Shown here piece by piece: positions 13,995-51,388 of a stretch of DNA of 64,000 bases. A program made the position numbers and the translations under genes. Every line of letters begins with the position of its first letter. Position 1 is the first letter of the stretch. The stretch covers positions 4,154,001 through 4,218,000 of the forward strand of contig NZ_CP042806.1 of assembly GCF_008000815.1 (NCBI RefSeq). The letters are read 5' to 3'. The stretch comes from Terriglobus albidus. Lineage in GTDB: Bacteria > Acidobacteriota > Terriglobia > Terriglobales > Acidobacteriaceae. The notes below the pieces were generated by a model that saw only the letters and a program-made list of their open reading frames with translations, was not told the DNA's origin and did not search any database.

Positions 13995-14291
13995 TTAGGG
14001 ACGGTCGCGGCGACTTGAAACCCCATAGCTTTGGAAGAGTCGATAGGCCTGGATCTTTACGGTCTCTTCGTAGATTCCGAGGCTAGAGCATTTCTCCTGT
14101 AGGTGGAGTGCGGGGCTTGTGCATCTATGGGCGTTTTCCGCAATGAAAACGCCCATAGATGCACGCTCCTCCCGGGATACCCAGCAACATGAAAAATGCT
14201 CTAGACGGGATGTTACCGTTTGTGGGCCATCAAGGATGAGTTCCAGAACCTCCGGCTCCCGCACTGTAGGCGGAGAAATCTTCGGCGGCAT
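13995..14291 (-). pseudogene. LuxR-type HTH remnant interrupted by a repeat element
   Basis: Read on the minus strand, VREPEVLELILDG (upstream) and LGIYEETVKIQAYRLFQSYGVSSR (downstream) are the two halves of a LuxR/FixJ helix-turn-helix, like the family pattern REREVLELIAEG...LGISEETVK...LGVSSR. Repeat copy 2 (14084-14203) sits between them, in the turn region of the HTH. No receiver or sensor domain is found upstream, so only the DNA-binding tail survives. The 190 bp between the tRNA and this remnant show no recognisable gene. Confidence 0.7.
14084..14203. repeat. Dispersed TAGAGC element, copy 2 (inside luxR remnant)
   Basis: 120-bp element with ends TAGAGCATTTCTCCTG... and ...AAAAATGCTCTA. 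It has a perfect 20-bp central inverted repeat (14119-14138 with 14145-14164, 6-nt loop). TA borders both ends. The internal GGGATACCCAGCAAC block matches copies 3 to 6. Confidence 0.85.
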
Positions 14292-34049: not shown

Positions 34050-36530
34050 TCAGCGGCGCGCGCGCTCGGGCGGAACCGGATACGCAGGTGGAGCCCCGGT
34101 GAAACTTAGCGCCACATGTTCAATGACTACCCCTGGATCGCCTGCATAGCGAATGCGTACGATATGGCGCCCTGCCTTCAACTTCGGCAAAGCGATCGTC
34201 TGTTCTGCAAAACCACGAAGCACATTCGTCTTCCACGCTGAGATACCAGGCCGCTCTACCTCAGTTCCCGAAGCATCCTGAGACATCCATGCGCCATCGT
34301 CCACCTGCACCTCATAACGAAGCGTATGGTCTGAATCCACGGGAAAATCCGGCAACAAGTCGATCGCCAGCGTCGCATCTCCAGTTGCAGCAACATGCAA
34401 CGCATACTGCGCCGCGCCGCCTTCCTGCAGTTCCAGCGAGCCACCCGAAACCCCCAGATCAGGCAGAATGCGAACCCCGCCTGTCTTCGACACGGCGTGC
34501 GCGCCATTCACCGCAGAGACCAATGCCTCTTTCCCCTCGCCCCATGTCACAGGTAGCGCTACGTTATTCTCCATGGAAATCGCCGGCATCTCGAAGACAT
34601 GGCGTTCACGCGGATGCGAGGACATCATGCCCGCCCACTTGCCACCTTCCAGGCTGTTGTACTCCTCGGTCAAGTGCTGGACAGAGTCATACGCCGCATG
34701 AGATTTCGCGGCCGCATCCTGTGCTTTAGCCGCAGCTCCCTCATGAGCATCGAGGACCGCGCGATCGGCCCAGAGGAACTTCGCGTTCTGTGCAGCAGCG
34801 CCCTCAATCGGGTACTGCACCAATTCAAACCACGCCGGCTTTAACGAGGCGGGCAATACAACCGCCTGTTCGCGCCTCACCAGAGCATCCCAGACATGCA
34901 TCCGCTGTACATTCTCATCTCCCCATGCAAGCGGGTTGAACGCAGTGCGGTTAACACCGTCATCGTATCCATTGAAGCCCATGAACTCGGGACGCCGAAT
35001 AAAGTTCAGCCGGTAGGATTCCGCCACCAGGTCTGCAGCGGGTTTCGCCATAGCGACGCCGAACTGCTCCCGCATCCACCGCTCCAGAAAAGCTGCCTGG
35101 CTCTCCTTTGCGATCGCCGGTTCATCCCAGGCAAGCTGCAGGAAATAGTCCATCTGGACTTCGCTCGGCTTGAGGTCGCCAACATTCAAAACCCACAGCT
35201 TACGAACTTCATGCTCGTAGGCCTTCGTCAGCTCTTCCTGCATCAACGAGAGCGGCGTTGTCGCCAGCCACAGATGATCGTGCGGAAAGCCCCAATACGA
35301 AACGTGGTAGTAGAGAGCCGATCCGCCGGCACGTTTGCGCTCCTCAGCGTTCGGCATCTGACGAATGTACCCATAGTTGTCGTCTGTCCAACCAAGAGTC
35401 ACATCGACAGGTATCTTCATGCCGACGCGATACAGATCGATCGACTCCTTGTATAGCCAGTCCACCTGCGGAGCATCAGAGTGTCCGTGTTTCCGCAGGA
35501 TCTCCTGTTGTGAGGCGATGACGCTCTCCACCAGGCGGGCCTTTACCTCTTTCGTTCCTGTGGCTTCGAGTCCGGTATCGTGCACACCGCGCATGCCAAC
35601 CGTATAGAAGTTTTCGTACGCTCCGTTCTCGGCAATACGCTTGTCCCAATAGGTATCGATCGCGGGCTTGTTCACCTGGTAGTTCCAGGGACCATCGTGC
35701 TTCTCGTCCCACTCTCCGACGTTGTTACGTAACATTGCCTCGGAGTGCGAAGCACCCATGACGATGCCCCAGCGGTCAGCGAGCTTTGCATTCTCTGGAA
35801 CTGCGTTGAAGGCGAGTGTCCCCGGATGCATCGCCGGCCACAGCAGATTGGCCCGCAGCCGCAGCAACAACTCGAAGATGTGCTCATAGGTGCGAGGGCC
35901 GATGTTGTTCAGCTCGGGGTCCATCTTCCTCGCGGCCCATGGGCGCAGGCCCCAGTCCTCGTCATTTAGAAAGATTCCCCGATACTTCACCGTCGGTTCG
36001 TTCGTCGTCCAGCCTTGGCGAACGCTTACGGACCGATGCTTCTGCACCGGCACATCAGCCCACCAGTACCAGGGAGAGACTCCCATCGCCCGAGAGATCC
36101 CCAACAACTCATATGCCGTTCCACGGCGGTCGCTTCCTGCAACCACCAGCAGCTTCCGGTTGTTGTTCGGCACAAGGAAGACTGCGCCACTTTCCCATTT
36201 GCCGCGTAATGCTGACAAAGCGTTCTCCTGGTGCAGGCTGTTCAATACGGGAGAGTGATCCACTGTCCCGATGACCACCGCATCTCCATCAGCCGGGACG
36301 GAGTCCACCACTTGAGGCTTCACACCGGTCACGCGCTCAAGGTCGTCCGCGAAGAGCTTCACTGCCAGGCGGGCCGTCTCAGGATCCTCTTGAGAAACCA
36401 CGAGACTGGCACTCTTCCCGCCCCTGACCAGATCGAATTCCCGCGGAGTCTTCGGCGTATCCGTAACCACCTGCGCGCCGGAGACAGCACACAGCATCCC
36501 TAAAGGCAGAACCCATCCCAAAATTCGCAT
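34050..36530 (-). CDS. GH115 xylan alpha-(4-O-methyl)glucuronidase
   Basis: 826 aa, exported (signal peptide MRILGWVLPLGMLCAVSGAQ). The family fold is seen in order: an N-terminal carbohydrate-binding-like section (AGSDRRGTAYELLGISRAMGVSPWYWWADVPV), then the barrel with KYRGIFLNDEDWGLRPWA, LLRLRANLLWPAMHPG, MGASHSEAML and GWTDDNYGYIRQMP, and a C-terminal beta domain. GH115 enzymes release glucuronic acid side chains from xylan. ATG 36530 starts the signal peptide; the open frame upstream runs into repeat copy 3. It stands alone, suggesting a dispersed hemicellulose-degrading system. Confidence 0.92.
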   Translation of the reverse strand: MRILGWVLPLGMLCAVSGAQVVTDTPKTPREFDLVRGGKSASLVVSQEDPETARLAVKLFADDLERVTGVKPQVVDSVPADGDAVVIGTVDHSPVLNSLHQENALSALRGKWESGAVFLVPNNNRKLLVVAGSDRRGTAYELLGISRAMGVSPWYWWADVPVQKHRSVSVRQGWTTNEPTVKYRGIFLNDEDWGLRPWAARKMDPELNNIGPRTYEHIFELLLRLRANLLWPAMHPGTLAFNAVPENAKLADRWGIVMGASHSEAMLRNNVGEWDEKHDGPWNYQVNKPAIDTYWDKRIAENGAYENFYTVGMRGVHDTGLEATGTKEVKARLVESVIASQQEILRKHGHSDAPQVDWLYKESIDLYRVGMKIPVDVTLGWTDDNYGYIRQMPNAEERKRAGGSALYYHVSYWGFPHDHLWLATTPLSLMQEELTKAYEHEVRKLWVLNVGDLKPSEVQMDYFLQLAWDEPAIAKESQAAFLERWMREQFGVAMAKPAADLVAESYRLNFIRRPEFMGFNGYDDGVNRTAFNPLAWGDENVQRMHVWDALVRREQAVVLPASLKPAWFELVQYPIEGAAAQNAKFLWADRAVLDAHEGAAAKAQDAAAKSHAAYDSVQHLTEEYNSLEGGKWAGMMSSHPRERHVFEMPAISMENNVALPVTWGEGKEALVSAVNGAHAVSKTGGVRILPDLGVSGGSLELQEGGAAQYALHVAATGDATLAIDLLPDFPVDSDHTLRYEVQVDDGAWMSQDASGTEVERPGISAWKTNVLRGFAEQTIALPKLKAGRHIVRIRYAGDPGVVIEHVALSFTGAPPAYPVPPERARR

Positions 36531-36542
36531 GACTGCTTCCAC

Positions 36543-36658
36543 TAAAGCATTTTCCCTGTTGCTGGGTAGCCCGGCAAGGAAGTACAGCGGCATTTTCATT
36601 GCGGAAAACGCCCAAAGATTCGGAAGCCCTACTCCACACCTACAGGGAAAACGCTCTA
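36543..36658. repeat. Dispersed TAGAGC element, copy 3
   Basis: 116-bp element in the inverted orientation (left end TAAAGCATTTTCCCTGTTGC, right end CTACAGGGAAAACGCTCTA). It carries the GGGTAGCCC block and central CATTTTCATTGCGGAAAACG. TA is at both borders. It fills the space between GH115 and lpxD, starting 12 bp upstream of the GH115 start codon and ending 34 bp before lpxD, so it must overlap or lie beside both promoters. Confidence 0.85.
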
Positions 36659-39632: not shown

Positions 39633-40520
39633 ATGAAGCTTTCGCATCGCCTCTGGAGCCGTCGGCGACTACTCTTCACCGCAGCCACTGCCTCTGTCGC
39701 AAGGCTCTTGCGCCCCAGCCGTCTTCTCGCAACAGCGAACACTGCCTGCCATCTCACTCCTGAATTGACGGTCGGCCCTTACTATGTCGACTACGAGCTG
39801 CTCCGCACTGACATTCGGGAGAATAGGCCTGGCCTGCCGCTGCATCTCTCCATCGTTCTTCTGAACGCGCGCACTTGCAAGCCGCTCTCCAATGCCGCAG
39901 TAGACATCTGGCATTGCGACGCAGCCGGCATTTACTCCGGCTATACCAAAATGAATCCTGACAAGATGGACTTTGGTCCAGGTCGACCTGGTGGATTTGA
40001 TGGCCCGCCGCCTCCTCCACCAACGGGAACCTTACCGCAAGGGCCGCCGAAAGATGGGGACCATCACGCCCCACTGCAGATGCACACGACGGACAACGAA
40101 ACATTCCTGCGCGGCGTACAAATCACCGGGAAGGACGGAACAGCGAAGTTCCTCACCATCTATCCCGGATGGTACGTAAGCCGGGATACACACATCCATC
40201 TGAAGGTCCACACCGGCGGCCATGACGATCATGGGAAGTACACCTCTGGGCACGTCCGCCACATCGGGCAGATCGCCTTTTCCGATGCACTCTCAGATCA
40301 GGTCGCCCAGCTGGAGCCGTACGTCAGCCACAAAGTACCCCGCACGCATCTCGCAGACGATACCGTCTTCCATGGAGATCTGTCCGGGATCATGCTGCAC
40401 ACCACCCAGGTCAACCCGGCCCGTCTGGCCGATGGCCTGTATGGAACAATTACTTTTACAGTCGATCCGGAAGCTGAACCCGGACCTGAGGGCTTTAGAG
40501 GTCCGCCGCCGTCCCAGTAG
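39633..40520 (+). CDS. Tat-exported intradiol ring-cleavage dioxygenase-like protein
   Basis: 295 aa. SRRRLLFTAATA fits a twin-arginine signal. ELTVGPYYVDYELLRTDI, DIWHCDAAGIYSGY and YPGWYVSRDTHIHLKV align with the protocatechuate 3,4-dioxygenase fold, including the tyrosine and histidine ligands for non-heme iron. A proline/glycine-rich insertion (about residues 110-145) is unusual. Export makes a role in extracytoplasmic aromatic (lignin/humic) oxidation plausible but untested. The open frame upstream of ATG 39633 is a shadow of the dehydrogenase. The TAG stop is the left border of repeat copy 4. Confidence 0.88.
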   Translation: MKLSHRLWSRRRLLFTAATASVARLLRPSRLLATANTACHLTPELTVGPYYVDYELLRTDIRENRPGLPLHLSIVLLNARTCKPLSNAAVDIWHCDAAGIYSGYTKMNPDKMDFGPGRPGGFDGPPPPPPTGTLPQGPPKDGDHHAPLQMHTTDNETFLRGVQITGKDGTAKFLTIYPGWYVSRDTHIHLKVHTGGHDDHGKYTSGHVRHIGQIAFSDALSDQVAQLEPYVSHKVPRTHLADDTVFHGDLSGIMLHTTQVNPARLADGLYGTITFTVDPEAEPGPEGFRGPPPSQ

Positions 40521-40632
40521 AGCATTTTTACTGTGGGTGTGATGTAGGGCTGCAGCATCTATGGCGTTCTCGGTAATGAAAACGCCACTGCACGCCCTTT
40601 CCGGAATACCCAGCAACAGGGAAAATGCTCTA
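40518..40632. repeat. Dispersed TAGAGC element, copy 4 (supplies a stop codon)
   Basis: 115-bp element with ends TAGAGCATTTTTACTG and CAGGGAAAATGCTCTA, the central GCGTTCTCGGTAATGAAAACGC hairpin region (about 40563-40584) and the GGAATACCCAGCAAC block. Its first three bases are the TAG stop of the dioxygenase. It ends 17 bp before the lipoprotein start. Confidence 0.88.
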
Positions 40633-40649
40633 GTAGCTATACTCAACCC

Positions 40650-41006
40650 ATGCAGTTTCAGAAAGCCGCAGCCCTTTTCCTTCTTCTCATCGCCCTCGCA
40701 GGCTGCCGCTCTCGCTACATCGCAACCACCATTACGAATGACACAGCAAGTCCTGTCAGTGTCGTACAGGTTGACTACCCTTCGGCCAGCTTCGGTACGC
40801 AGTCACTCGCTCCGGGACAGACATTCAGTTATCGCTTTAAGATTCAGGGTTCCGGTCTGGTGAAGATGACATGGCTGACTGCCGACCGGAAGGAGATGCA
40901 CGCCAACGGCCCCACACTCTCAGAGGGCCAGGAGGGGCAGCTCGCCATCCACCTTCGGGCAAATGCCGACCCTACCTTTGCCTTTACCTCAATCAACGGA
41001 CGCTAG
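40650..41006 (+). CDS. Small lipoprotein of unknown function
   Basis: 118 aa. MQFQKAAALFLLLIALAGCRS is a lipoprotein signal with lipobox LALAGC, cleaved before Cys 19. The mature part is a short beta-rich domain (TTITNDTASPVSVVQVDYPSASFGTQSLAPGQTFSYRFKIQG), like small cupredoxin-like or FixG-like Ig folds, but I do not recognise a family. The start is close to the right end of repeat copy 4, so its promoter may lie in the repeat. Confidence 0.78.
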   Translation: MQFQKAAALFLLLIALAGCRSRYIATTITNDTASPVSVVQVDYPSASFGTQSLAPGQTFSYRFKIQGSGLVKMTWLTADRKEMHANGPTLSEGQEGQLAIHLRANADPTFAFTSINGR

Positions 41007-41009
41007 TTA

Positions 41010-41039
41010 GACCTTGTGTCCATTGACCTTGTGTCCATT
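41010..41039. repeat. 15-bp tandem duplication
   Basis: GACCTTGTGTCCATT occurs twice in direct succession (41010-41024 and 41025-41039) just after the lipoprotein stop. The second unit contributes the TAA stop (read on the minus strand) of the 52-aa ORF. Confidence 0.85.
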
Positions 41040-41196
41040 AGACCTCACGTCCGTGCGCCCGCGGCCGCCGGTTCCGCTGGTGAATTCCTGCGCTGCCACT
41101 CATCTTCGGATGGTCGCTCTGCTTACTCATGTACACGTACAGCAGGAAAAGCACCACTATCAGCGGAAGCATCATAAAGAAGCCATAAAAAATCAT
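41038..41196 (-). CDS. Small 52-aa single-pass membrane protein
   Basis: Minus-strand ORF of 52 codons. MIFYGFFMMLPLIVVLFLLYVYM forms one strong transmembrane helix, followed by a basic tail (SKQSDHPKMSG ... HQRNRRPRAHGRE). A GGGGAGG ribosome-binding site lies 7 bp upstream of the ATG, which is the main support. Family not recognised. It lies convergent to the lipoprotein and divergent from the porin-like gene. No gene is seen in the remaining 160 bp up to 41356. Confidence 0.6.
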   Translation of the reverse strand: MIFYGFFMMLPLIVVLFLLYVYMSKQSDHPKMSGSAGIHQRNRRPRAHGREV

Positions 41197-41356
41197 GGCA
41201 ACACCTCCCCATAATCATCCCTATCTATAAGACTCGCCCCACCGCACCGTCGTTGCTTTCTAAGAAAATTCGTTCCCCCGCCTGACGCCGCTGTACTCCT
41301 GCCTTGCCGATTCGCGGTCTTACTGTGTACCTCGCTGTAAAGGACACACGCGTATC

Positions 41357-42016
41357 TTGCTGACGCTCCACCGTCTTGCTCTTTTTCTCAATCTCTTTAT
41401 CGCCGGCATGGCACTCACAACGTCTTCTTCAGCACAGGCAGCCGCCGCGGCGTCCGCGACCTCGAACCTTGAGCTCTTCGGCGGGGTTTCCAAGGTGTAT
41501 ACCGGCGTGCAAGGCCAGAACACAAGCTTCACCGCCGGTGGAGATTTCATACTCGGCCGTTTCGCCGGGCTTGTACCCTCCGCCGAAGTCCGAGGCACGT
41601 ACGCCTTCAGGAAAGGCAACGTCGCCGCTGAGAAAAATATCCTCGGTGGGATCAAGCTTACGCGGGAGTTAGGTTCCGTCCGCCCGTACGTAAACTTCCT
41701 CGCGGGGCGAGGCTCCATCGACTTTCCCAATAACTACACCTACGGCAGTACCACGTACGAGTACGTTTCCGGCACAGTACTTTCGCCAGGAGCCGGCATC
41801 GACTTTTCCGTCAACTCACACTGGTCGGCCAAACTGGACTTTCAGTACCAACGCTGGGCTGTTCCGGTCACCGGTTCCGGATCGATCTACTCCAAATCCG
41901 CCACAGCCGGCGTAGCGTACCGCTTTAACTTTGAGTCGCTTGGCCGCCGCCACAAAAAGGCCCGCGACTACAGCGACTATAAGACCGCAACCAGTCAGAA
42001 GGACGATCACCAGTAG
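41357..42016 (+). CDS. Outer-membrane beta-barrel protein (porin/OmpA-barrel-like)
   Basis: 219 aa with a signal peptide (LTLHRLALFLNLFIAGMALTTSSSAQA). Alternating strands follow (NLELFGGVSKVYTG, SFTAGGDFILGRF, PSAEVRGTYAF, KNILGGIKLTREL, RPYVNFLAGRGSI, GAGIDFSVNSHWSAKLDFQYQRW, SATAGVAYRFNF), consistent with an 8-stranded barrel. A charged tail of about 30 residues follows. The start is TTG 41357 with AAAGGA upstream; no ATG is available. Function unknown. Confidence 0.78.
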   Translation: MLTLHRLALFLNLFIAGMALTTSSSAQAAAAASATSNLELFGGVSKVYTGVQGQNTSFTAGGDFILGRFAGLVPSAEVRGTYAFRKGNVAAEKNILGGIKLTRELGSVRPYVNFLAGRGSIDFPNNYTYGSTTYEYVSGTVLSPGAGIDFSVNSHWSAKLDFQYQRWAVPVTGSGSIYSKSATAGVAYRFNFESLGRRHKKARDYSDYKTATSQKDDHQ

Positions 42017-42061
42017 GCACTCGTCGCAGTATGTTTTTACGGAATCGAATACACTTGCCCC

Positions 42062-42703
42062 ATGCCGCGCGGCTTTTTTATCACCTTTGAGGGGCTGGAC
42101 GGCTCCGGAAAAACAACGCAACTCCGGCTGTTACATAAATGGATGGCCGAGCAGGGCCATACTGTCACAACCCTGCGCCAGCCCGGAGGGACAAAACTCG
42201 GCGAAGGCATTCGCGAGCTGATCGTCAGTTCCAAGGGCGAGGCGGCAGTCGGCCCCATCGACTCCTTCACGGAGCTCGCCTTGATGTTCGCGGACCGAGC
42301 CCAGTCCATCGCTGAGATCATCCGCCCGGCTCTAGACCGCGGCGAGATTGTGCTCTGCGACCGTTACACCGATTCCTCCGAGGCGTACCAAGGTGGCGGA
42401 CGAGGGCTTGGCAGCGAGACCATCCTCGGTCTGCATCGTTTGCTCTGCGGCAACCTGCAGCCGGATCTTACCGTTCTGCTGTTACCGGATTTCAACGCTT
42501 CCCTTGCCCGGGCGCGGCGCCGCGACGGAGATGAGTCCCGCTTCGAGCAGGAGCACAACGACTTCTTCCAACGTGTCTGGGATGCCTACAAGGTCATCGC
42601 CGCCCGCGAGTCCGGGCGTGTCGTCCTGATCGAAGGAAATGCCTCCATCGATGAGGTACATGCGACTATCGTTGAGGAAGTCTCGACCCGGCTTTTTTCC
42701 TGA
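42062..42703 (+). CDS. tmk: Thymidylate kinase
   Basis: 213-aa essential enzyme phosphorylating dTMP to dTDP. P-loop FEGLDGSGKTTQ, the DR(Y/H) motif LCDRYTDSSEAYQGGGRGLG and a C-terminal LID region with RARRRDGDESRFE are visible. Arginine in the LID and a glycine P-loop put it in the E. coli-type class II kinases. The P450 gene begins 5 bp after its stop, implying co-transcription with P450 and holB. Confidence 0.95.
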   Translation: MPRGFFITFEGLDGSGKTTQLRLLHKWMAEQGHTVTTLRQPGGTKLGEGIRELIVSSKGEAAVGPIDSFTELALMFADRAQSIAEIIRPALDRGEIVLCDRYTDSSEAYQGGGRGLGSETILGLHRLLCGNLQPDLTVLLLPDFNASLARARRRDGDESRFEQEHNDFFQRVWDAYKVIAARESGRVVLIEGNASIDEVHATIVEEVSTRLFS

Positions 42704-42708
42704 TCCAG

Positions 42709-44085
42709 ATGAACGGTCCGGCCACACTCTCGATTGTCGAACGCGGAGAGTATCGTTTCCCTCCGGGCCTGCGTCATAATCTGCCTTTTTACATGGGTCG
42801 CAAGCCGTGGGCGAGGATCGGACGCCCCATTCTGCTCTTCGAGCATCTGGCAAAGACCTACGGCCCTGCGACCCACTATCGCATGATGGGCACTGACATC
42901 CTCTTCCTCAATCATCCGGACTTCGTCCAGGAGGTGCTCGTCACTCAGAGCGGCAATTTCATCCGCGAGCGCACGCTGCGCCGCATGAAGATTCTGCTGG
43001 GTGAGGGCCTGCTTACCAGTAACGATCCGGTTCACATGCAACACCGCCGAATCGTCGCACCTGCTTTCCATCGCCAGCGGATTGCGGCCTACGCCGATGA
43101 GATCGTACGTTCGGCCGCTGCGATGGCTGAGCGATGGAAATCAGGTCAGGCGATCGATATCGGGGCAGCCATGATGGAGCTCTCGCTTTCGATTGTTGCC
43201 CGAACGCTGTTCGCCAGCGAGGTCACAGAGGACATCCGAGCCATCAACCATGAGACCCATGCCATTATGCGTCTCTACAACCTGCTGGTAATCCTGCCCA
43301 GGCTCGAAAGCTACCTGCATTGGCCTCTGCCTGGCGTGACCCGTTTCCGGAAGGCACGGGCGCACCTTGATTCGGTTGCCTACCGCATCATCCGTGAACG
43401 CCGTGAAGATCCCGTAGATCGCCATGATCTTCTTTCCATGCTGCTGCTTTCACGGGACGAGGATGGCAATTCCCTCTCCGATGAACAGGTGCGCGATGAG
43501 ATGCTGACGATCTTCCTCGCCGGCTACGAGACCACAGCGAACGCACTCACATGGACCTGGTATCTGCTCTCACAGAATCCGGACGCCCGCGAGCAGATGC
43601 ATGCTGAACTGGATCGAGTCCTGGCAGGCCGCACGCCTACCCTGGCTGATTACGCGAATCTCACCTACACGCAGCAGGTCTTCTCCGAGTCCATGCGCCT
43701 CTACCCGCCGGCCTGGGCTATGGGGCGGGAAGCCGCTATCGATGTCGAACTCGGGCCTTATCGTATTCCGGCTGGATCACATGTCTTCTTCTCCCAATGG
43801 ATCATCCACCGGAGTCCGGAGTTCTTTCCCGATCCATTGCGGTTCGATCCGTCGCGACACACGGATGCGGCCAAAGCAGCGCGTCCCCGGTTTGCCTACT
43901 TTCCGTTCGGCGGAGGCTCCCGTCAGTGCATCGGTGAAAGCTTCGCCTGGATGGAAGGGACCCTTGCCCTGGCTTCCATTGCACAACAATGGAAGCTGAA
44001 CCTCGTGCCGAACCAACGCATCGACGTGCAGGAGAAGATCACGCTGCGGCCCAGATATCCGATTCTGATGACACCGCGACTGTAA
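42709..44085 (+). CDS. Cytochrome P450
   Basis: 458-aa heme monooxygenase without a membrane anchor. The I-helix oxygen-binding motif is LAGYETTANAL, the K-helix ExxR is ESMRLYPP, and the heme-binding loop FPFGGGSRQCIGESFAWME contains the proximal cysteine. The N-terminal region (FPPGLRHNLPFYMG) resembles fatty-acid or terpenoid hydroxylases, but substrate cannot be assigned. It sits between tmk (5 bp) and holB (35 bp), two essential replication-related genes commonly adjacent to each other, so it seems inserted into a housekeeping operon. Redox partners are not nearby. Confidence 0.95.
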   Translation: MNGPATLSIVERGEYRFPPGLRHNLPFYMGRKPWARIGRPILLFEHLAKTYGPATHYRMMGTDILFLNHPDFVQEVLVTQSGNFIRERTLRRMKILLGEGLLTSNDPVHMQHRRIVAPAFHRQRIAAYADEIVRSAAAMAERWKSGQAIDIGAAMMELSLSIVARTLFASEVTEDIRAINHETHAIMRLYNLLVILPRLESYLHWPLPGVTRFRKARAHLDSVAYRIIRERREDPVDRHDLLSMLLLSRDEDGNSLSDEQVRDEMLTIFLAGYETTANALTWTWYLLSQNPDAREQMHAELDRVLAGRTPTLADYANLTYTQQVFSESMRLYPPAWAMGREAAIDVELGPYRIPAGSHVFFSQWIIHRSPEFFPDPLRFDPSRHTDAAKAARPRFAYFPFGGGSRQCIGESFAWMEGTLALASIAQQWKLNLVPNQRIDVQEKITLRPRYPILMTPRL

Positions 44086-44120
44086 GATTTTTCTGTCACA
44101 GAAGACGGTAAAATCTGACA

Positions 44121-45233
44121 GTGGACTTCGCTAGCTTTATTGGAAATGCACCGGCTGTCGATCAGCTTCGCTCTGCTATCGCCGCAGGCCGCCTTCCACA
44201 TTCCATGATCCTGTCCGGGCCGAAAGGCGCCGGGAAGTATACGCTTGCCATTCTGTTGACGCAGGCATTGCTTTGCCAGAACCAACCCCGCGAAACTCTT
44301 GCCAACGGTCAGGAGGCAGCGCTCGCGTGCGGAACCTGTGCCAACTGCACCCGCATCGCCGCAGCGATGCCCCTCGATACTCTGGTCGACGAAGCCGTAG
44401 CGGCCCGGGAAGAGCTGCGCGAGACAGATAAGAAAGAGACGCGCGTTCTGATTCAGACGCACCCGGACGTGCTCATCATTCCTCCGGATCCTCCTCAGTT
44501 AATGATCAAGGTCGGTCAGATCCGCACGCTGATCCATTCCGCATACCGCGCTCCCGGTGAAGCCAAGCGTAAGGTCTTTATCCTTACGGCCTCCAGCTTT
44601 ATGAAAGAGGCGGCGAATTCGCTTCTGAAAGTTCTGGAGGAGCCGCCTGCTTACGCGCATCTGATTCTGCTGGCCGATAACCCGGGCGAGCTTCTGCCTA
44701 CGATCCGGTCTCGTTGCGCGATGGTACGCCTCGGAGCCCTACCTCCCCACGAGATCGAAGGTCTGCTGGCCGCCGAACATCCGGACTGGAAGCCTGCGCA
44801 GCGCCAGCTCGTCGCCCGTCTGGCACAGGGAGCCGCCGGCCGTGCCCTCAACTTTGATCTTGGCGCCTTCACCGCCGCGCGCCAGGATGCGCTCGTTGTT
44901 CTGCGGAATGCCGTAGGCGACCCCGACCACACGGCTCTCTTCAAAATGACGGAAACCTATCGTGCCGGTGCAGAGGGCCAGCAAAAGACACAGGATCTGC
45001 TCGGCGCCCTGTCTTCGCTGCTGGAAGACCTGCTGTTGCTCCAGGCAGGAACGCCGGAGATGATTCGCAATGTCGATCTGATCGCCGAACTGGAACGGAC
45101 TGCCACGGCCGTTCCTTTCGAATGGATCGAAGCAGCCTCTCGCGCGCTTGACCAGGTACAGTCCGGCATGCGGCGAAACTTGCTGCGTTCGCTCTCACTG
45201 GACGCCTTCGCGGGACAACTGGTGGTACGGTAA
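44121..45233 (+). CDS. holB: DNA polymerase III subunit delta'
   Basis: 370-aa clamp-loader subunit. FASFIGNAPAVDQLRSAIAAGRLPHSMILSGPKGAGKYT contains a degenerate Walker A (GKYT), normal for the non-hydrolysing delta'. A zinc module with CGTCANC, the LLKVLEEPPAYAHLILLADNP segment and the SRC motif (TIRSRCAMVRL) follow. The C-terminal oligomerisation helices are present. The start is GTG 44121. A 50-residue insertion between the zinc module and KVGQIRTL (rich in Glu/Lys) is longer than in E. coli. Confidence 0.92.
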   Translation: MDFASFIGNAPAVDQLRSAIAAGRLPHSMILSGPKGAGKYTLAILLTQALLCQNQPRETLANGQEAALACGTCANCTRIAAAMPLDTLVDEAVAAREELRETDKKETRVLIQTHPDVLIIPPDPPQLMIKVGQIRTLIHSAYRAPGEAKRKVFILTASSFMKEAANSLLKVLEEPPAYAHLILLADNPGELLPTIRSRCAMVRLGALPPHEIEGLLAAEHPDWKPAQRQLVARLAQGAAGRALNFDLGAFTAARQDALVVLRNAVGDPDHTALFKMTETYRAGAEGQQKTQDLLGALSSLLEDLLLLQAGTPEMIRNVDLIAELERTATAVPFEWIEAASRALDQVQSGMRRNLLRSLSLDAFAGQLVVR

Positions 45234-45381
45234 CGTACAAAAAAATCGCCAACCCATGCGACCTTCGTTAGACTGGACGCATCCCTATCTTTAAGAGCTC
45301 CACTTTAGTCGTTTCTCTTGCGCGCGGACGCGCTGAACCGTTGGGGGTTCGCTCTGCTGTATTTCTGGAATCTGCTGCTTC

Positions 45382-45765
45382 ATGAGTGATCAAACCACCA
45401 TCTCGACCGTCGATCAGACCTTCAATGGCAATCGCAAGCTGATACGTCCTTCCCTTGTAGGCCGTATGCTGCGCCGCGGCAACGTGCGTCATGAAGAACC
45501 GCTCTCGAATGCGGCGCTGCAGGAGAATCATCATCCCGGCGAAAGCAGTCACGCCGAAGCCTTCTACTTCCAGAAGCAGATTCAGCAGAAGACCGAGATG
45601 GTCGTCGTACTCGAAGACGGCGAACGGCTGGATGGACAGATTGAGTGGTACGACCGTGGCGTCATCAAGCTCTGTACCACATCACGGCAGCGGGTGCTGA
45701 TCTACAAGTCATCGGTCAAGTACATCTATAAAGCCAGCGAAGTCCCTACATCGACCCTGCTCTAG
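45382..45765 (+). CDS. Hfq/Sm-like domain protein with N-terminal extension
   Basis: 127 aa. Residues 60-120 (EAFYFQKQIQQKTEMVVVLEDGERLDGQIEWYDRGVIKLCTTSRQRVLIYKSSVKYIYKA) match the Hfq pattern: N-terminal helix, Sm1 strands (VLEDGERLDGQIEWYD) and Sm2 (RQRVLIYKSSVKYI, like the canonical YKHAIS). The first 58 residues are basic then His/Glu-rich and have no counterpart in Hfq. It may be a divergent RNA chaperone. The TAG stop is the border of repeat copy 5. It is convergent to tsaC and begins 148 bp after holB. Confidence 0.82.
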   Translation: MSDQTTISTVDQTFNGNRKLIRPSLVGRMLRRGNVRHEEPLSNAALQENHHPGESSHAEAFYFQKQIQQKTEMVVVLEDGERLDGQIEWYDRGVIKLCTTSRQRVLIYKSSVKYIYKASEVPTSTLL

Positions 45766-45879
45766 GACGAGCCTCCTGTTGCTGGGTATCCCAGGGGGGG
45801 ATTGCAGCGGCCTTTTCATTTGCGGAAAACGCCGATAGATGAGGAAGCCCTACTCTACACCTACAGGAAAAATCCTCTA
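45763..45879. repeat. Dispersed TAGAGC element, copy 5 (supplies two stop codons)
   Basis: 117-bp element in inverted orientation, left end TAGGACGAGCCTCCTGTTGC then TGGGTATCCC, right end CTACAGGAAAAATCCTCTA. Its first TAG is the stop of the Hfq-like gene and its last CTA is the stop of tsaC on the minus strand. The element is therefore the whole intergenic region between the two convergent genes and may serve as a hairpin terminator for both. Confidence 0.88.
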
Positions 45880-46875
45880 ACTGACCCGGGCTGCCTTCCG
45901 CAGCCTGTCCAGAAGAGCCGCGCCGACTCCATGTTCCGGCGGCAGAGGACAGACGATGGAGGTCACCCCGCGGGCATCCAGGTCGCGCAGGCCGGCAAAG
46001 AGCCGCTGCGCCATCTCCTCCGGTGTGCTTCCCCAATCGAACGTCTGCCCCTCGGACGTCCATCCCGTGGGTAACAACACTCCCGTCCGCTCCGGTTTCA
46101 GAGAGGCCACCGTCTCCTGCAGCTCCGCTTGATCCCTGACCAGCACGACCCTGGCCCGAGGAGCGTAGTGCCGGATGCCCACCCCCGGGGAGGGCAGACT
46201 CTCAGGGCTTTGGGTCGTCGCCGGAGGCTCATAGCGCACGGCGGGACCAACAGTCTCCTCAAGCATTTGTAGCGTCACAGCGCCTGGCCGATAGACCACC
46301 ATCGGAGTTTGACAGGGGTCGACGACCGTCGATTCCACCCCAACTTCAGTTGCGCCACCGTCGAGAACGGCGTCGATACGGCCCTCCAGATCCTCCAGAA
46401 CGTGCGCGGCGTTCGTCGGGCTGGTTCTTCCGAAGCGATTGGCGCTGGGAGCCGCTACGGGGACTCCTGCCTCCCGAATCACCTGCAACATCACGGGATG
46501 ACGCGGCATCCGCACCCCCACCAGAGACCGACCGGCTGTCACCAGGTCCGGAACAGCATCAGACTTCGGCAACAGCAGCGTTAGCGGGCCGGGCCAGAAC
46601 GCCTTCATCAACCGAACCGCCGCAGGGGGGATCTCCCGAACGACAAGCCGCAACATCGCCTCATCGGCCACATGGACGATCAGGGGATCCCATCCCGGAC
46701 GTTCCTTGGCCGTAAAAATCCTTGCAACAGCCTTTGGATCGAGAGCGTTCGCCCCCAGCCCATAAACCGTCTCGGTCGGCAAAGCGACCGTTCCACCCTG
46801 CCGCAGGATCTCCGCTGCCCGGGCAATTCCGTTGGCGGTTTCCTGAAGCCGTTCTGTTGTTCCTACAAAATCCAC
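45877..46875 (-). CDS. tsaC: L-threonylcarbamoyladenylate synthase (Sua5 type)
   Basis: 332 aa: a YrdC domain plus the C-terminal Sua5 domain, as in long-form Sua5. GGTVALPTETVYGLGANALD, KERPGWDPLIVHV, FWPGPLTLLLPK, VGVRMPRHP and APSANRFGRTSPT form the substrate and ATP-binding cleft. The Sua5 part has the SPGVGIRHYAPRARVVLV linker. It makes threonylcarbamoyl-AMP for t6A37 modification of tRNAs reading ANN codons, including the tRNA-Lys in this window. The stop codon is the right border of repeat copy 5. Confidence 0.93.
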   Translation of the reverse strand: MDFVGTTERLQETANGIARAAEILRQGGTVALPTETVYGLGANALDPKAVARIFTAKERPGWDPLIVHVADEAMLRLVVREIPPAAVRLMKAFWPGPLTLLLPKSDAVPDLVTAGRSLVGVRMPRHPVMLQVIREAGVPVAAPSANRFGRTSPTNAAHVLEDLEGRIDAVLDGGATEVGVESTVVDPCQTPMVVYRPGAVTLQMLEETVGPAVRYEPPATTQSPESLPSPGVGIRHYAPRARVVLVRDQAELQETVASLKPERTGVLLPTGWTSEGQTFDWGSTPEEMAQRLFAGLRDLDARGVTSIVCPLPPEHGVGAALLDRLRKAARVS

Positions 46876-46921
46876 CTCTTCATCCTAGCGTCGGGCGGAC
46901 AAACAGGCCTATACTTCCACC

Positions 46922-47521
46922 ATGTCCTCAGCCGAGATCGAGCTGAAGTTTGCTGTCCGTTCTTCGGATAAGCTCCGTTCCCAACTTCCTTCTCTCGGCC
47001 TTACGCTGCTTACTCCCCGCACGCTTGAGCAGAATACGCTTTATGACACACCAGATCGTTCGCTGCGTGAGCAGAAGCAGATTCTCCGTATTCGCAGCTA
47101 TGACGGTCGATGGACGCTGACCTACAAACGCCCTCCGACCGATGAAACCCTGCTCGATCTGCGCTTCAAACTGCGCTATGAGACGGAAACCGAGGTGGCC
47201 AATGGCCCCGCTCTCGGTGAGGTCTTTGAGCACCTGGGATATCTGCCCGCCTTCCGGTACGAGAAATACCGAGAAGAATGGCTGCATGCAGAGAGCGAAG
47301 GTCATGTGGTGATCGATGAGACTCCGATCGGCACCTGGGCGGAACTCGAGGGCTCTCCCGATTGGATCGACGCCATGCTCGCCGGCCTGGGGATTCCCTC
47401 AGAGGATTCGACCACGGAGAGCTACGGCCGACTGTTTCTCTCATGGAAAGAACAGACCGGGCATCCAGCGGAAAACCTCACCTTTGAAGAGATTGCCCTC
47501 GATACAGTCCCGGCCCGTTGA
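46922..47521 (+). CDS. CYTH-domain triphosphatase / class IV adenylate cyclase-like protein
   Basis: 199-aa triphosphate tunnel protein. EIELKF near the N-terminus is the ExExK signature. Charged strand residues continue (LREQKQILRIRSYDGRWTLTYKRP, YEKYREEWLHAESEGHVVIDETPIGTWAELEG), forming the tunnel that binds triphosphate with Mg2+. Such proteins are either tripolyphosphatases/thiamine-triphosphatases or cyclases; the sequence alone does not decide. It is divergent from tsaC (46-bp gap) and lies 48 bp upstream of a nucleotidyltransferase gene, possibly co-transcribed. Confidence 0.88.
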   Translation: MSSAEIELKFAVRSSDKLRSQLPSLGLTLLTPRTLEQNTLYDTPDRSLREQKQILRIRSYDGRWTLTYKRPPTDETLLDLRFKLRYETETEVANGPALGEVFEHLGYLPAFRYEKYREEWLHAESEGHVVIDETPIGTWAELEGSPDWIDAMLAGLGIPSEDSTTESYGRLFLSWKEQTGHPAENLTFEEIALDTVPAR

Positions 47522-47569
47522 CCTCTTCGCCGACCCTCAATCGAAACTTGCCCCACTAAAATAGGCATT

Positions 47570-48760
47570 GTGTCAGGTAACAAGGGCCATTTGCAGCCGA
47601 AAGCGACGTTTCTACAGCAACAGACCGCGGCATTCCAACTGGCGGTAGCCTGTTGTACCTGGCCGCTCGATATGCCACTCATCGAGCAGACCGCGGACGC
47701 ACAGACGGATTGGTTTGAGTTTCTTGCGATGGTTAAACGCCATCGGATTCCTGGCTTGGCTCATCGTGCGCTGAAGCACGTAAGCGGAATTCCGGAAGAG
47801 GTTCGCCAGGCACTTTCATCCAAGGCTCATACCAGCATTCTGGGAAATCTACGTTGCATTGCGCTTCTTTCGCAATTGGACACACAGTTCAAAAGTCGTG
47901 GCATACCGTATGCGGTCCTCAAGGGAATCCCTCTGAGCCAGCAGCTTTACGGCGAACCTTCACTCCGTCAAACCCGCGACATTGATCTTCTGGTAGCCCC
48001 TCATGATTTCGAGGCCGCGGAGAACATCTTGTTGCAAGCAGGTCTGAGGCGCAAGGAACCAGAGGGAGAACTGACACCGCAATTACGCAGGTTATGGTTT
48101 GACCTGCGGCATCACTTCTCTTACGTCTATCCTCAACATGGAATCACGCTGGAACTTCACTGGCGATTGTTTGACAATAGCGCCATTGATCCGGGACCTT
48201 GCGTCTTTCAAGAACTCGATCGGGTAGAAGTTTCGCGAGGCATTTCTCTTCCCGTGTTGCGCCGCGAATACCTCCTGTCACATCTAATCGTGCACGGTGC
48301 AAGCCATGCATGGTGCCGCCTCAAGTGGTTATCCGATGTTGCGGCCCTGCTCACCGACTATTCTGCAAACGATCGCAAACATCTTCTTCAGCAGGCCCGA
48401 GACCAGGGAGTTGAGCCGGCTTTCCGACAGGCGATAGCGGTATGTGAGTCCCTTGAGCTGTTACCGTTCTACGATCTGCCTCCAGCACCTGCCTCTGTAC
48501 GCTGGTTGATCTCTGTCGCCCTTCACGGCCTGCTTGAAGAAGAACCTGACCGCGGTTATTTCCAGGCCCGTCACCTAATGCTTTCGCGATTTACATTGAG
48601 TCCGCGGCGCTCGTATCGCCTGCAGGAACTTAGGGTGCAGTTGTTCTCTGTTGACGACTGGGAGATGTTTCCTCTGCCCCGGTGGCTTACCTTTACATAT
48701 CCTCTACTTCGAGCACCGTTGTGGCTCATCCGCCGTTCCCTCTACGCACTCCGAGGCTAG
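47570..48760 (+). CDS. Nucleotidyltransferase family protein (NTP_transf_5-like)
   Basis: 396 aa. LKGIPLSQQLYGEPSLRQTRDIDLLVAPHDFEAAENIL carries the K-G and DIDLLV metal-binding motif of the uncharacterised nucleotidyltransferase family often found in polysaccharide or peptide-natural-product loci. HFSYVYPQHGITLELHWRLFD and LSHLIVHGASHAWCRLKWLSDVAALL are further family blocks. The start is GTG 47570. The target is unknown. Here the neighbours are CYTH and a purine permease, not a biosynthetic cluster. Confidence 0.82.
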   Translation: MSGNKGHLQPKATFLQQQTAAFQLAVACCTWPLDMPLIEQTADAQTDWFEFLAMVKRHRIPGLAHRALKHVSGIPEEVRQALSSKAHTSILGNLRCIALLSQLDTQFKSRGIPYAVLKGIPLSQQLYGEPSLRQTRDIDLLVAPHDFEAAENILLQAGLRRKEPEGELTPQLRRLWFDLRHHFSYVYPQHGITLELHWRLFDNSAIDPGPCVFQELDRVEVSRGISLPVLRREYLLSHLIVHGASHAWCRLKWLSDVAALLTDYSANDRKHLLQQARDQGVEPAFRQAIAVCESLELLPFYDLPPAPASVRWLISVALHGLLEEEPDRGYFQARHLMLSRFTLSPRRSYRLQELRVQLFSVDDWEMFPLPRWLTFTYPLLRAPLWLIRRSLYALRG

Positions 48761-48912
48761 GGCGTGAAGGATATAGAGCATATCGATGAGTTCGTGCGTT
48801 GTGGATCAGCGCATCGCACAACCGAAAGCGCTGTGGTGTCTGCCGCGCGTGCGTCCGATATGATGAACGCATCGCACCATCGACCTTTCTTTCAAGAGGT
48901 ACCGCCGCCCGC

Positions 48913-50220
48913 ATGCGAGCTGCGCTCGAACGCTACTTTCAGTTTCATGAGCTGGGGACCGACTGGCGCACGGAGATTCTGGCCGGTGTGACGACCTTCG
49001 TCACCATGGCCTATATCATCTTCGTGAACCCGTCGATTCTGTCGCAGACCGGCATGCCTATTGCGGCAGTGACCATCGCCACCTGCCTCTGCGCGTCCTT
49101 TGGTTCCATCCTGATGGGGGCACTGGCCCGCTATCCGCTGGCGCTGGCGCCCGGTATGGGGTTGAATGCCTATTTCACCTATACCGTCTGCCTGAAGATG
49201 CACGTGCCATGGCAGACGGCCCTTGGCGCGGTCTTTCTCTCCGGTATCATCTTCCTTCTGCTCACACTTGGCGGCATTCGCCAGTTGCTTATCTCCGCGA
49301 TTCCCCGCGAGCTGCACGCAGCCGTCGCTGGAGGGATCGGTCTGTTTATCGCTTTTATCGGGCTGCGTAATGCCGGCATTATCGTCAGCGATCCAGCAAC
49401 AGCAGTCACGCTCGGCAATCTGCGCTCCCCGCAGACAGCACTCTCGCTCTTCGGTCTGATTCTGATTGCGGTGCTGCAGGTACTGCGCGTCCGTGCATCG
49501 ATCCTGATCGGCATCGCCGGAACCATGCTCACCGGGTTCATCTTCCACCAGGTGCACTGGCAACCCGGTCACGCAAGCCTCTCCGCCATTCGTCAGACGG
49601 CCCTTCATCTCGATATTCCCGGAGCATTGAAGCTCAGCGGCGTCGAGATCGTCTTTGTATTTCTCTTTGTCGATCTCTTTGACAACATCGGCACCCTGCT
49701 TGCCGTTACGCAGAAGACAGGCCTGATTCCTGCTTCCGGTGTGATTCCGCGGGTACAGCGTATCTTCTTCGCCGATGCCATCTCCACCGTGGCAGGTTCA
49801 CTGGCCGGAACCTCCACCGTCTGCTCCTACATCGAATCCAGCGCGGGGGTTGCCGCCGGAGGCCGTACAGGTATAACCGCCATTACGACCGGGCTGCTGT
49901 TCTTCCTATCCATATTTGTCGCTCCGCTGGTGGGGGCAATTCCTGTTTCCGCCACCTCACCGGCGCTCATCATCGTAGGCGCACTCATGCTCGGCAGCAT
50001 CGGGGAGCTCGACTGGCATGATCCGCTGGTCGCAATTCCCGCATTTCTCACGCTCATTACCATCCCGCTGACCTATTCCATTGCCACTGGACTTGGATTC
50101 GGCGTCATTGCCTTTGCCGCACTACGATTGTTTAGCGGTCGCGCGAAGAAGGCGGATTGGTTACTTTACCTCCTGGCGACCGTCTTTCTAGTCAGGTTTA
50201 TTTATCTCGCCGCGGGTTGA
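48913..50220 (+). CDS. NCS2-family purine permease (AzgA-like)
   Basis: 435-aa, about 12-14-helix proton symporter for adenine, guanine or hypoxanthine. TEILAGVTTFVTMAYIIFVNPSIL, ALAPGMGLNAYFTYTVC, VFLFVDLFDNIGTLLAVTQ and STVCSYIESSAGVAAGGRTGITAITTGLLF are the AzgA/PbuG-type signatures. I chose ATG 48913; the frame upstream to 48799 lacks conservation. No purine riboswitch fold was recognised in the 152-bp upstream gap. Confidence 0.92.
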   Translation: MRAALERYFQFHELGTDWRTEILAGVTTFVTMAYIIFVNPSILSQTGMPIAAVTIATCLCASFGSILMGALARYPLALAPGMGLNAYFTYTVCLKMHVPWQTALGAVFLSGIIFLLLTLGGIRQLLISAIPRELHAAVAGGIGLFIAFIGLRNAGIIVSDPATAVTLGNLRSPQTALSLFGLILIAVLQVLRVRASILIGIAGTMLTGFIFHQVHWQPGHASLSAIRQTALHLDIPGALKLSGVEIVFVFLFVDLFDNIGTLLAVTQKTGLIPASGVIPRVQRIFFADAISTVAGSLAGTSTVCSYIESSAGVAAGGRTGITAITTGLLFFLSIFVAPLVGAIPVSATSPALIIVGALMLGSIGELDWHDPLVAIPAFLTLITIPLTYSIATGLGFGVIAFAALRLFSGRAKKADWLLYLLATVFLVRFIYLAAG

Positions 50221-50253
50221 GGTGTTGACAAGCGGTCTATACTGACCATAATC

Positions 50254-50628
50254 ATGCGCTTAACCTCCGATCGAGCAGCATCGAAAGCCGCGAAACCCGC
50301 CTTACGGGTTTCATGGGCCTTCGCATTGCTTTGTCTTGTTGTGATTGTGGCGGTATTTGCATGGGGAACGGCTTATAAGATTTCGCTTTACCGCACACTT
50401 GACGGTCCAACATTTCCGCATGTGAAGATGGGCACCACCTCCGACGGCCCGATGAAACGGGCTATTGGCACGGCTGTTCTTGCCCTCGCTGTTCTTCCCT
50501 GGCTGGCAGCGCTGAAACCTCCCAGGCAGATGCAGCGCGTGGCCCGTAATTGGATTACTCCACCGCGTCCAGCTACCATCGCGAAACAGCCTCAGCTTTT
50601 CTTTCGACCTCCTCCTCGGGTCCGCTAG
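50254..50628 (+). CDS. Hypothetical small membrane protein
   Basis: 124 aa with two hydrophobic segments (WAFALLCLVVIVAVFAWGTAYKI and AIGTAVLALAVLPWLAAL) and a basic, proline-rich tail. No family recognised. It starts 33 bp after the purine permease and precedes the ECF sigma gene by 74 bp. Similar hydrophobic two-helix ORFs are often found before sigma factors as anti-sigma proteins, but this one lacks recognisable anti-sigma motifs. Confidence 0.5.
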   Translation: MRLTSDRAASKAAKPALRVSWAFALLCLVVIVAVFAWGTAYKISLYRTLDGPTFPHVKMGTTSDGPMKRAIGTAVLALAVLPWLAALKPPRQMQRVARNWITPPRPATIAKQPQLFFRPPPRVR

Positions 50629-50702
50629 CTCATCCTCGCTCATGCTTTATGAGCGCTTCCATGGCTGCGATGCCTTGGTGTCGCCTTCACTGGAGAAGCT
50701 AG

Positions 50703-51278
50703 ATGGATCAGCATCATACCCCCTGTCCAACGGGGCGCATCGTCGCACTCACGGAACTGTTTCTTAACCGCCGCTCACTTTTAAAGGGCATCGCCCACTC
50801 GATTCTGAGGAACGAAGCCGACGCTGAAGACGCGCTGCAGGAGGCCTACTACAAGGCTATGAACCGCATCGAGCAGCTGGCCGATGAGCACGCACTGCTC
50901 GGCTGGCTCTGCATGATCGTTCGCAACCACTCCCTGCAGATGCTGCGCAGCCGCCGGGTTCGCCAGGCCGGCTCGATCGACACCGAACCGGAGATGCGGT
51001 TTGCGGTCGAATCGCTTACCACCACCGAGGACGAGTCTCCGGAACACATCTGCATTGAACGCGAGATGTTCCAGCGCACCATGGCCCGGCTCGACCTTCT
51101 GCCAGCCAATATGAAGGCGACCGTCACGATGCACTATCTCTCGGAGATGAGTCTGAGTGAGATTGCAGAGCGGCAGGGACATACCATCCCGGCACTCAAA
51201 AGCTATCTCTACCGGGGCCGGAAAATACTGCGGGGAGGGCCACTGCCCTCCCCACGTGAAGAAACCGTCTGCGCCTAG
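50703..51278 (+). CDS. ECF-type RNA polymerase sigma factor
   Basis: 191 aa. Region 2 has ILRNEADAEDALQEAYYKAMNRI and LLGWLCMIVRNHSLQMLRSRR. Region 4 has LDLLPANMKATVTMHYLSEMSLSEIAERQGHTIPALKSYLYRGRKIL, with the helix-turn-helix that reads the -35 element. There is no zinc anti-sigma gene downstream, where copy 6 of the dispersed repeat begins. The TAG stop is the first three bases of that repeat. Confidence 0.92.
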   Translation: MDQHHTPCPTGRIVALTELFLNRRSLLKGIAHSILRNEADAEDALQEAYYKAMNRIEQLADEHALLGWLCMIVRNHSLQMLRSRRVRQAGSIDTEPEMRFAVESLTTTEDESPEHICIEREMFQRTMARLDLLPANMKATVTMHYLSEMSLSEIAERQGHTIPALKSYLYRGRKILRGGPLPSPREETVCA

Positions 51279-51388
51279 AGCATTTTCCCTGTAGGTGTCG
51301 TGTAGGGCTTCCGCATTTATGGGCGTTTTGCGCAATGAAAACTCCGCTGCACGCTCTTTCGGGATACCCAGCAACAGGGAAAATGCTA
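51276..51388. repeat. Dispersed TAGAGC element, copy 6 (supplies a stop codon)
   Basis: 113-bp element. The left end TAGAGCATTTTCCCTGTAGG includes the sigma-factor stop; the right end CAACAGGGAAAATGCTA lacks the last TC pair of other copies. The central GGGCGTTTTGCGCAATGAAAAC hairpin and GGGATACCCAGCAAC block are present. It separates the convergent sigma and DsbA-like genes. Confidence 0.88.

Follow-up and report, generated by a model that had tools for sequence, protein, structure and literature searches.

A repeat of about 116 bp, present in six copies in the 64,000-nucleotide stretch analyzed here (the window; positions 4,154,001 to 4,218,000 of the Terriglobus contig NZ_CP042806.1, assembly GCF_008000815.1), lies with its borders exactly on the stop codons of genes far more often than its target preference would predict. 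We regard it as very probable that this repeat is a miniature inverted-repeat transposable element (MITE) that inserts at TA, that its preferred site, when in frame, is a stop codon, which the element rebuilds as TAG, and that many copies landing elsewhere have probably been purged. An earlier note on this DNA had placed four gene ends on the borders of three copies. All of these coordinates are confirmed, and the other three copies in the window end no gene. The relevant features are:

40518-40632, plus strand: repeat copy; left border TAG is the dioxygenase stop, right border CTA then G; borders without mismatch to TAGAGCATTTT / AAAATGCTCTA
45763-45879, minus strand: repeat copy between convergent genes; borders are the TAG of the Hfq-like gene and the TAG (minus strand) of tsaC; left border mutated
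51276-51388, plus strand: repeat copy; left border TAG is the stop of the extracytoplasmic function (ECF) sigma factor gene; right border mutated (GCTATG)
39765-40520, plus strand: dioxygenase-like gene (PF00775, E=1e-8); TAG 40518-40520 on the element border
45382-45765, plus strand: Hfq-related gene (PF21979 and PF17209); TAG 45763-45765 on the element border
45877-46875, minus strand: tsaC/Sua5-type threonylcarbamoyl-AMP synthase gene (PF01300 and PF03481); CTA 45877-45879 on the element border
50703-51278, plus strand: ECF-type sigma factor gene (PF04542 and PF08281); TAG 51276-51278 on the element border
36543-36658, minus strand: repeat copy, not on a stop codon; shared with a relative (locus L201)
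14084-14203, plus strand: repeat copy, not on a stop codon
13512-13616, minus strand: degenerate repeat copy (29 bits), not on a stop codon

Coincidence of element borders with stop codons

For a wider count we used a sample of 2.06 Mb, consisting of the window and 100 stretches of 20 kb taken at intervals from the chromosome (6.4 Mb, a single contig), in which a custom script called 1703 genes (87% coding) and a profile search recovered 110 copies of the repeat. For each border we took the distance to the stop of the closest gene that reads towards it; these distances cover 109 of the 110 elements, one being too near the end of a stretch, and 90 of these 109 have at least one facing gene end (the first count ignored gene ends lying more than 60 nt within an element, and a recount added one). 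Fifty of the 121 gene 3' ends facing these copies lie at distance 0, and about 46% of the sampled copies sit on stop codons; the next commonest distance, with both sides pooled, is 1 nt, with four gene ends, and no other distance has more than four. The coincidence is therefore real, and the figure of 50 is an undercount, because the end of the Hfq-like gene was scored at distance 4 on account of its mutated border and two cases in interrupted or deleted copies were missed. In 400 kb of Terriglobus albidus DSM 26559 (G120; in the same genus as the window's genome and 97% identical over the Hfq-like protein) a border stop is seen in 14 of 40 copies and at 14 of 41 facing gene ends.

Two loci outside the count deserve mention. 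At L038:13744-14118 a different repeat, about 250 bp long and bounded by the inverted ends GAGGGTGTGTCATCAAACTC, splits a copy on whose left TAG a gene stops. At L047:9458-9481 there is a remnant of about 24 bp with the ends of the element, on which two convergent genes, presumably cysS-like and HAD-like, both stop.

The earlier note had suggested that the overlap exceeds what random placement would give, and this holds across the sampled third of the genome. Among the 91 of 109 copies kept as clean (copies with more than three mismatches in an end, or inside a gene call, were dropped), 46 are at a stop, against 9.6 expected from TA counts alone and 14.2 expected from TA weighted by the preference for two flanking nucleotides on each side (P ~1e-14). 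This preference was learned from the 45 clean copies that are not at stops; with other flank widths the expectation ranges from 13 to 15 and P from 6e-16 to 2e-13. Without the window's copies, 44 of 86 clean copies are at a stop. The excess is weaker, about 1.5-fold, when only TA sites up to 50 nt after a stop serve as the reference (46 of 63 observed and about 31 expected; P 3e-5 to 2e-4).

Any gene that enters the element in frame stops at its TAG, and our gene calls come from a custom script, so that the pattern could in principle stem from the gene calling itself or from a chance TAG at the border. With borders placed at random, however, gene ends in the other two frames would outnumber those in frame two to one, and the six gene ends that read past a border comprise only four in those frames and two in the border's own frame (50 against 4, P=9e-20 against equal frames). 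Since the stops also exist in element-free relatives, as described below, we give this explanation practically no weight.

Proposed restoration of a pre-existing stop

We propose that the coincidence arises as follows: 1) The repeat would be a non-autonomous mini-transposon, most likely moved by a transposase of the IS630 type (Tc1/mariner-like). 2) It inserts at TA and duplicates it, as is seen at empty sites, with a preference for C or T before and A or G after the TA. As TA followed by A or G is always a stop when in frame, the in-frame preferred site is a stop codon. 3) The TA on the left, together with the first base of the element, G, forms TAG whichever end comes first and thus restores the stop at the same codon, as the sequences show; because the element starts with G, both TAA and TAG stops are rebuilt as TAG. 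4) Selection would probably have removed copies elsewhere in genes and many intergenic copies. 5) The gene would then carry a predicted hairpin directly after its stop. A gene with the element on its stop is, on this proposal, usually left unharmed.

The earlier note had left two possibilities side by side, insertion into the TA of an existing stop with duplication of the TA, and the creation of new, earlier stops. Removal of the element and one TA yields TAA or TAG as the empty codon in 45 of the 50 cases (21 TAA and 24 TAG). With TA still present at the far border the proportion rises to 32 of 33; without it, when the join is less sure, it is 13 of 17. A reconstructed TAA or TAG in frame is a stop, and hence those genes ended there before the insertion. 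The border stops now read TAG in 46 cases and TAA in four. In the genome sample as a whole we count 565 TAG, 549 TAA and 509 TGA stops (n=1623), TAG being the commonest, with 46 of the TAG stops coming from border elements.

The second possibility, gene truncation, holds that the element inserts in the 3' part of a gene and that its border TAG is a new stop. It finds an example in a remnant in T. albidus (L202:6598), which lies at a TAT codon of the window gene 41357-42016 and leaves the protein about a dozen residues shorter, and a second in L104:5794, a clean copy that reconstructs to TAC. Against it stand the reconstructed stops just described, the stops kept at empty sites in relatives, and the frames of the gene ends, for about 100 read-pasts in the other two frames would be needed to match the 50 in frame, where four are found. 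As the main explanation truncation is refuted, and we hold it very improbable as a source of the pattern; insertion into an existing stop is the alternative that the data uphold.

Empty and occupied sites in related genomes

Comparison of gene ends with element-free orthologues, a check that the earlier note had proposed, finds the stop in place at empty sites. The Hfq/tsaC site is empty in G126 and G128 (L200 and L201), with the flanks separated by exactly TA; both genomes read GCTC-TAA at the Hfq end and have the tsaC TAG on the opposite strand, so that both stops are present. The window's genome lacks the T. albidus copy C28:292889; there the gene has TAG as its stop, and nothing but TA lies between the flanks. 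T. albidus in turn has no element at the site of the copy L076:3152, and the TAG stop is present there. A further copy of T. albidus, L202:447, lies between genes, and its empty site again has TA alone between the flanks, with one base before the TA differing. The 2-bp target-site duplication is thus seen as TA at Hfq/tsaC, C28:292889 and L202:447, and in element orientation the empty site shows the preference G-C-TA-A/G-A, with the core C/T-TA-A/G. The right end of the T. albidus copy at Hfq/tsaC has an unusual AATCC in common with the window's copy, but in T. albidus seven further bases follow it; the two may represent one old insertion.

The two other gene ends of the window are less clear. 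The dioxygenase orthologue of G135 ends in CAG TAG, and its last residues align poorly. At L200:4845-4961 and L201:5613-5728 the dioxygenase gene is absent and only the right end of the element is left; it seems that a deletion ended inside the element. The ECF site is empty in G120, G126 and G128, with TGA at the stop codon, and in G135, with TAA; the codon is the same and gene length is unchanged. In T. albidus (L146) the ECF stop opens a tandem repeat with an 18-bp unit, TGACGCTTACTCTGCGCC, in three full copies.

Several observations weigh against the proposal of insertion into, and restoration of, existing stops, among them the T. albidus remnant that shortens a protein. 1) Five of the 50 reconstructions lack a stop. 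Four of these have a degraded or misplaced far border, and the clean one is L104:5794; the copy at 45763 is one of the four, and its true border reconstructs to TAA. 2) With TGA or TAA at the ECF codon in relatives, the ECF gene is not a clean example of TA insertion. 3) A or G also follows the TA in 40 of 46 copies that are not at stops. We therefore rejected the frequency of A or G after TA as proof of a former stop; it discriminates only because it is in frame, and is retained solely as an in-frame argument. 4) At one neighboring site, C28:73303-73418 of G120, CA rather than TA is duplicated; this is a divergent member of the family with ends GAGCATTTCTCC, and its site is empty in the window's genome. 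5) After TA counts and flank preference are allowed for, an excess of about 3-fold at stops remains, which probably reflects purging of harmful copies. 6) A mobilizer with the ends of the element was not found in the window's genome, where two DDE_3 copies lack such ends within 1.5 kb, in a search that was not exhaustive.

Target preference, probable selection and possible targeting

The earlier note had spoken of a landing rule that avoids damage. This is too strong as worded: target preference accounts for one part of the pattern, and loss of harmful copies probably for another. The types of gap between genes bear on how much is left for active targeting, in which the machinery would be drawn to the ends of reading frames by translation or transcription termination or by exposed DNA, with TA fixing the exact base. 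Among the 87 clean copies used for this analysis, those in convergent gaps lie on a stop in 21 of 25 cases and within 15 nt of one in the other four, with none farther away, yet 67% of the preference-weighted TA sites are farther. With unclean copies included, 22 of 31 are at a stop, five within 15 nt and two farther (16 and 65 nt), and two have a gene ending inside them. The share at stops is also alike in copies near to and far from the consensus (14/35, 20/35 and 16/37 by score); there is thus no sign of a bias growing with age, which neither proves targeting nor excludes fast purging. In tandem gaps, 24 of 47 clean copies are at a stop, and 15 clean copies lie between divergent genes, where 21 are expected, so that copies are not rare far from stops. 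Moreover, in the first 50 nt behind stops the observed number exceeds what sequence preference predicts only by the 1.5-fold given above, and long gaps may conceal unannotated genes and regulatory DNA from which copies are purged. Three factors thus contribute: preference for the target sequence, avoidance of intergenic DNA far from stops, and a smaller remainder. We consider it unlikely that the repeat is a DNA transposon drawn as such to the ends of reading frames, restoring the stop with its own first base; were it so, the element would spread through a dense genome at almost no cost.

Selection could also act in the opposite sense, with copies kept and enriched at 3' ends because they are useful there as terminators or in protecting RNA. 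The consensus is predicted to fold as a long hairpin on either strand (-54.6 kcal/mol, z -7.0 on one and -51.0 kcal/mol, z -6.2 on the other), in line with the hairpin that the earlier note expected at the 3' end, and copies per kb of gap number 0.72 in convergent, 0.48 in tandem and 0.25 in divergent gaps. However, transposition itself needs the inverted repeats of which the long stem consists, the consensus has no run of T after the stem, and in 15 of the 19 genomes of the genus element ends do not exceed background numbers. Usefulness at 3' ends appears to us slightly less likely still than targeting. A search of the window with the Rfam covariance models at gathering scores gave a tRNA as the sole match, the repeat matching no known RNA family.

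Structure, distribution and probable mobilization of the element

Including the TA at each border the repeat measures about 116 bp (about 112 bp without) and has 15-bp inverted ends, GAGCATTTTCCCTGT / ACAGGGAAAATGCTC; 92 of the 110 copies are 113-118 bp long. It thus shows terminal inverted repeats, is too small for a transposase gene and occurs in many copies, all of which are features of MITEs. Extrapolated by proportion, the 110 sampled copies would correspond to some 330-340 in the whole genome, and the end pattern has 423 matches genome-wide with at most two mismatches. Ends number in the hundreds in four of the 19 genomes of the genus. Across the family, 15 of 120 genomes, counting that of the window, have one or more ends with no more than one mismatch. 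This distribution suggests one amplification in this Terriglobus clade. Pairs of copies that adjoin, sharing a TA or abutting at it, occur at L062:16377-16606 and, in G120, at C28:325486-325715 and C28:301895-302126; tandem copies with a common TA are expected if the border of the element is itself a target.

Duplication of TA and a C/T-TA-A/G target are both in keeping with the IS630 family. The 2-bp TA duplication typical of IS630/Tc1-mariner elements is found at both borders of 57 of 88 clean elements (with A or G after the TA in 76 of 88) as well as at the empty sites. A search for DDE_3 proteins in eight relatives gave 12 loci from five of them, two of which have a matching end, both being incomplete with one end each. 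The first, L219 in G104, encodes an IS630 transposase (NF033545, 102.5 bits, cut-off 100) and ends TGA-AAATGCTCTA; its right end, GAAAATGCTCTA, overlaps the stop codon of the transposase. The second, L213 in G089, is an IS630-like relic (72.3 bits, below the NF033545 cut-off of 100; PF13358 70 bits, above its own cut-off) whose left end begins TAGATCAATTTCCCTCT; the TAG there coincides exactly with the stop of a response-regulator gene. The small elements of G089 have 13 ends TAGATCATTTTCCCTGT. Variant ends are also present in G116, which like G089 is a distant genome.

Other candidates were set aside. An insertion sequence (IS) family of the window's genome with a 361-aa DDE_Tnp_1 transposase has other ends; the search left out the ends of the 451-aa and 403-aa DDE_Tnp_1 copies and other transposase families. 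A search for DUF4096 transposases, which we take to be of the IS5 family, IS427 type, gave no match in G000, G120, G126 and G135 and one in G128, a 2.3-kb locus without the ends. Extra end-like stretches at L038, L047 and L118 proved to be interrupted, deleted or fragmentary copies instead of insertion sequences. A plasmid search with the consensus returned one weak 26-nt match that we judged irrelevant.

Relationship to known repeats

Repeats that supply stop codons are not new, since the BOX elements of Streptococcus pneumoniae encode the stop in 36 of 58 annotated overlapping genes, with no strong evidence of truncation (PMC3049150). BOX resembles the present repeat as a small dispersed repeat supplying gene stop codons, but it is modular and of other sequence, and the available text of that source mentions neither insertion at the TA of a stop nor a border exact to the base, and makes no comparison with target preference. 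RUP of the same species is a 107-bp MITE with TA at its ends that inserts at TA, with IS630-Spn1 as its proposed mover (PMC2229807, PMC3049150). It is thus alike in size, TA ends, TA insertion and proposed IS630 mobilization, but differs in sequence and is proposed to favor IS elements, and landing on stop codons goes unmentioned in the available passages of these two papers. The Shigella IS630 prefers TA in CTAG, according to the title of Tenzen and Ohtsubo 1991 (cited in PMC2170065), a target like the C/T-TA-A/G found here; unlike our repeat it is a full insertion sequence, and the title does not refer to stop codons. The 100-nt MITEPsy1 of Pseudomonas syringae, which targets CTAG or YTAA, shares the core target motif, but has a 4-nt duplication and unrelated inverted repeats, judging from the accessible part of PMC3189936. 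In the available portions of PMC2229807, PMC2759123 and PMC5896051, the Correia/NEMIS, ERIC/RU-1 and QMITE2 elements are likewise small repeats that carry inverted termini, in most cases with terminal TA, and form stable hairpins, but they differ in sequence and host. Reading frames run into the 107-bp Correia element, RU-1 and QMITE2 (enhC), whereas at the Terriglobus repeat the border is where genes end. An indel in one Coxiella strain places a stop just ahead of QMITE2.

Base-exact landing on the TA of a stop codon with the stop rebuilt, measured against target preference, was not found in the open-access literature among the matches listed (titles, abstract starts and passages). Searched as letters, the element end sequence gave, among the matches listed, only papers unrelated by title, and Terriglobus together with MITE gave one unrelated paper. 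The system would offer a rule, exact to the base, by which a high-copy element can persist in a compact genome: with TA as target and G as terminal base, a stop codon becomes a safe site that insertion rebuilds. It also provides a clean test of targeting against selection. The element would, furthermore, rewrite stop codons, the 21 border stops that reconstruct to TAA coming from a third of the genome, and would place a predicted hairpin after many genes.

In the window, the longest reading frame of an 849-aa gene (34050-36599) begins inside the repeat copy 36543-36658; its true start is probably downstream, outside the element.

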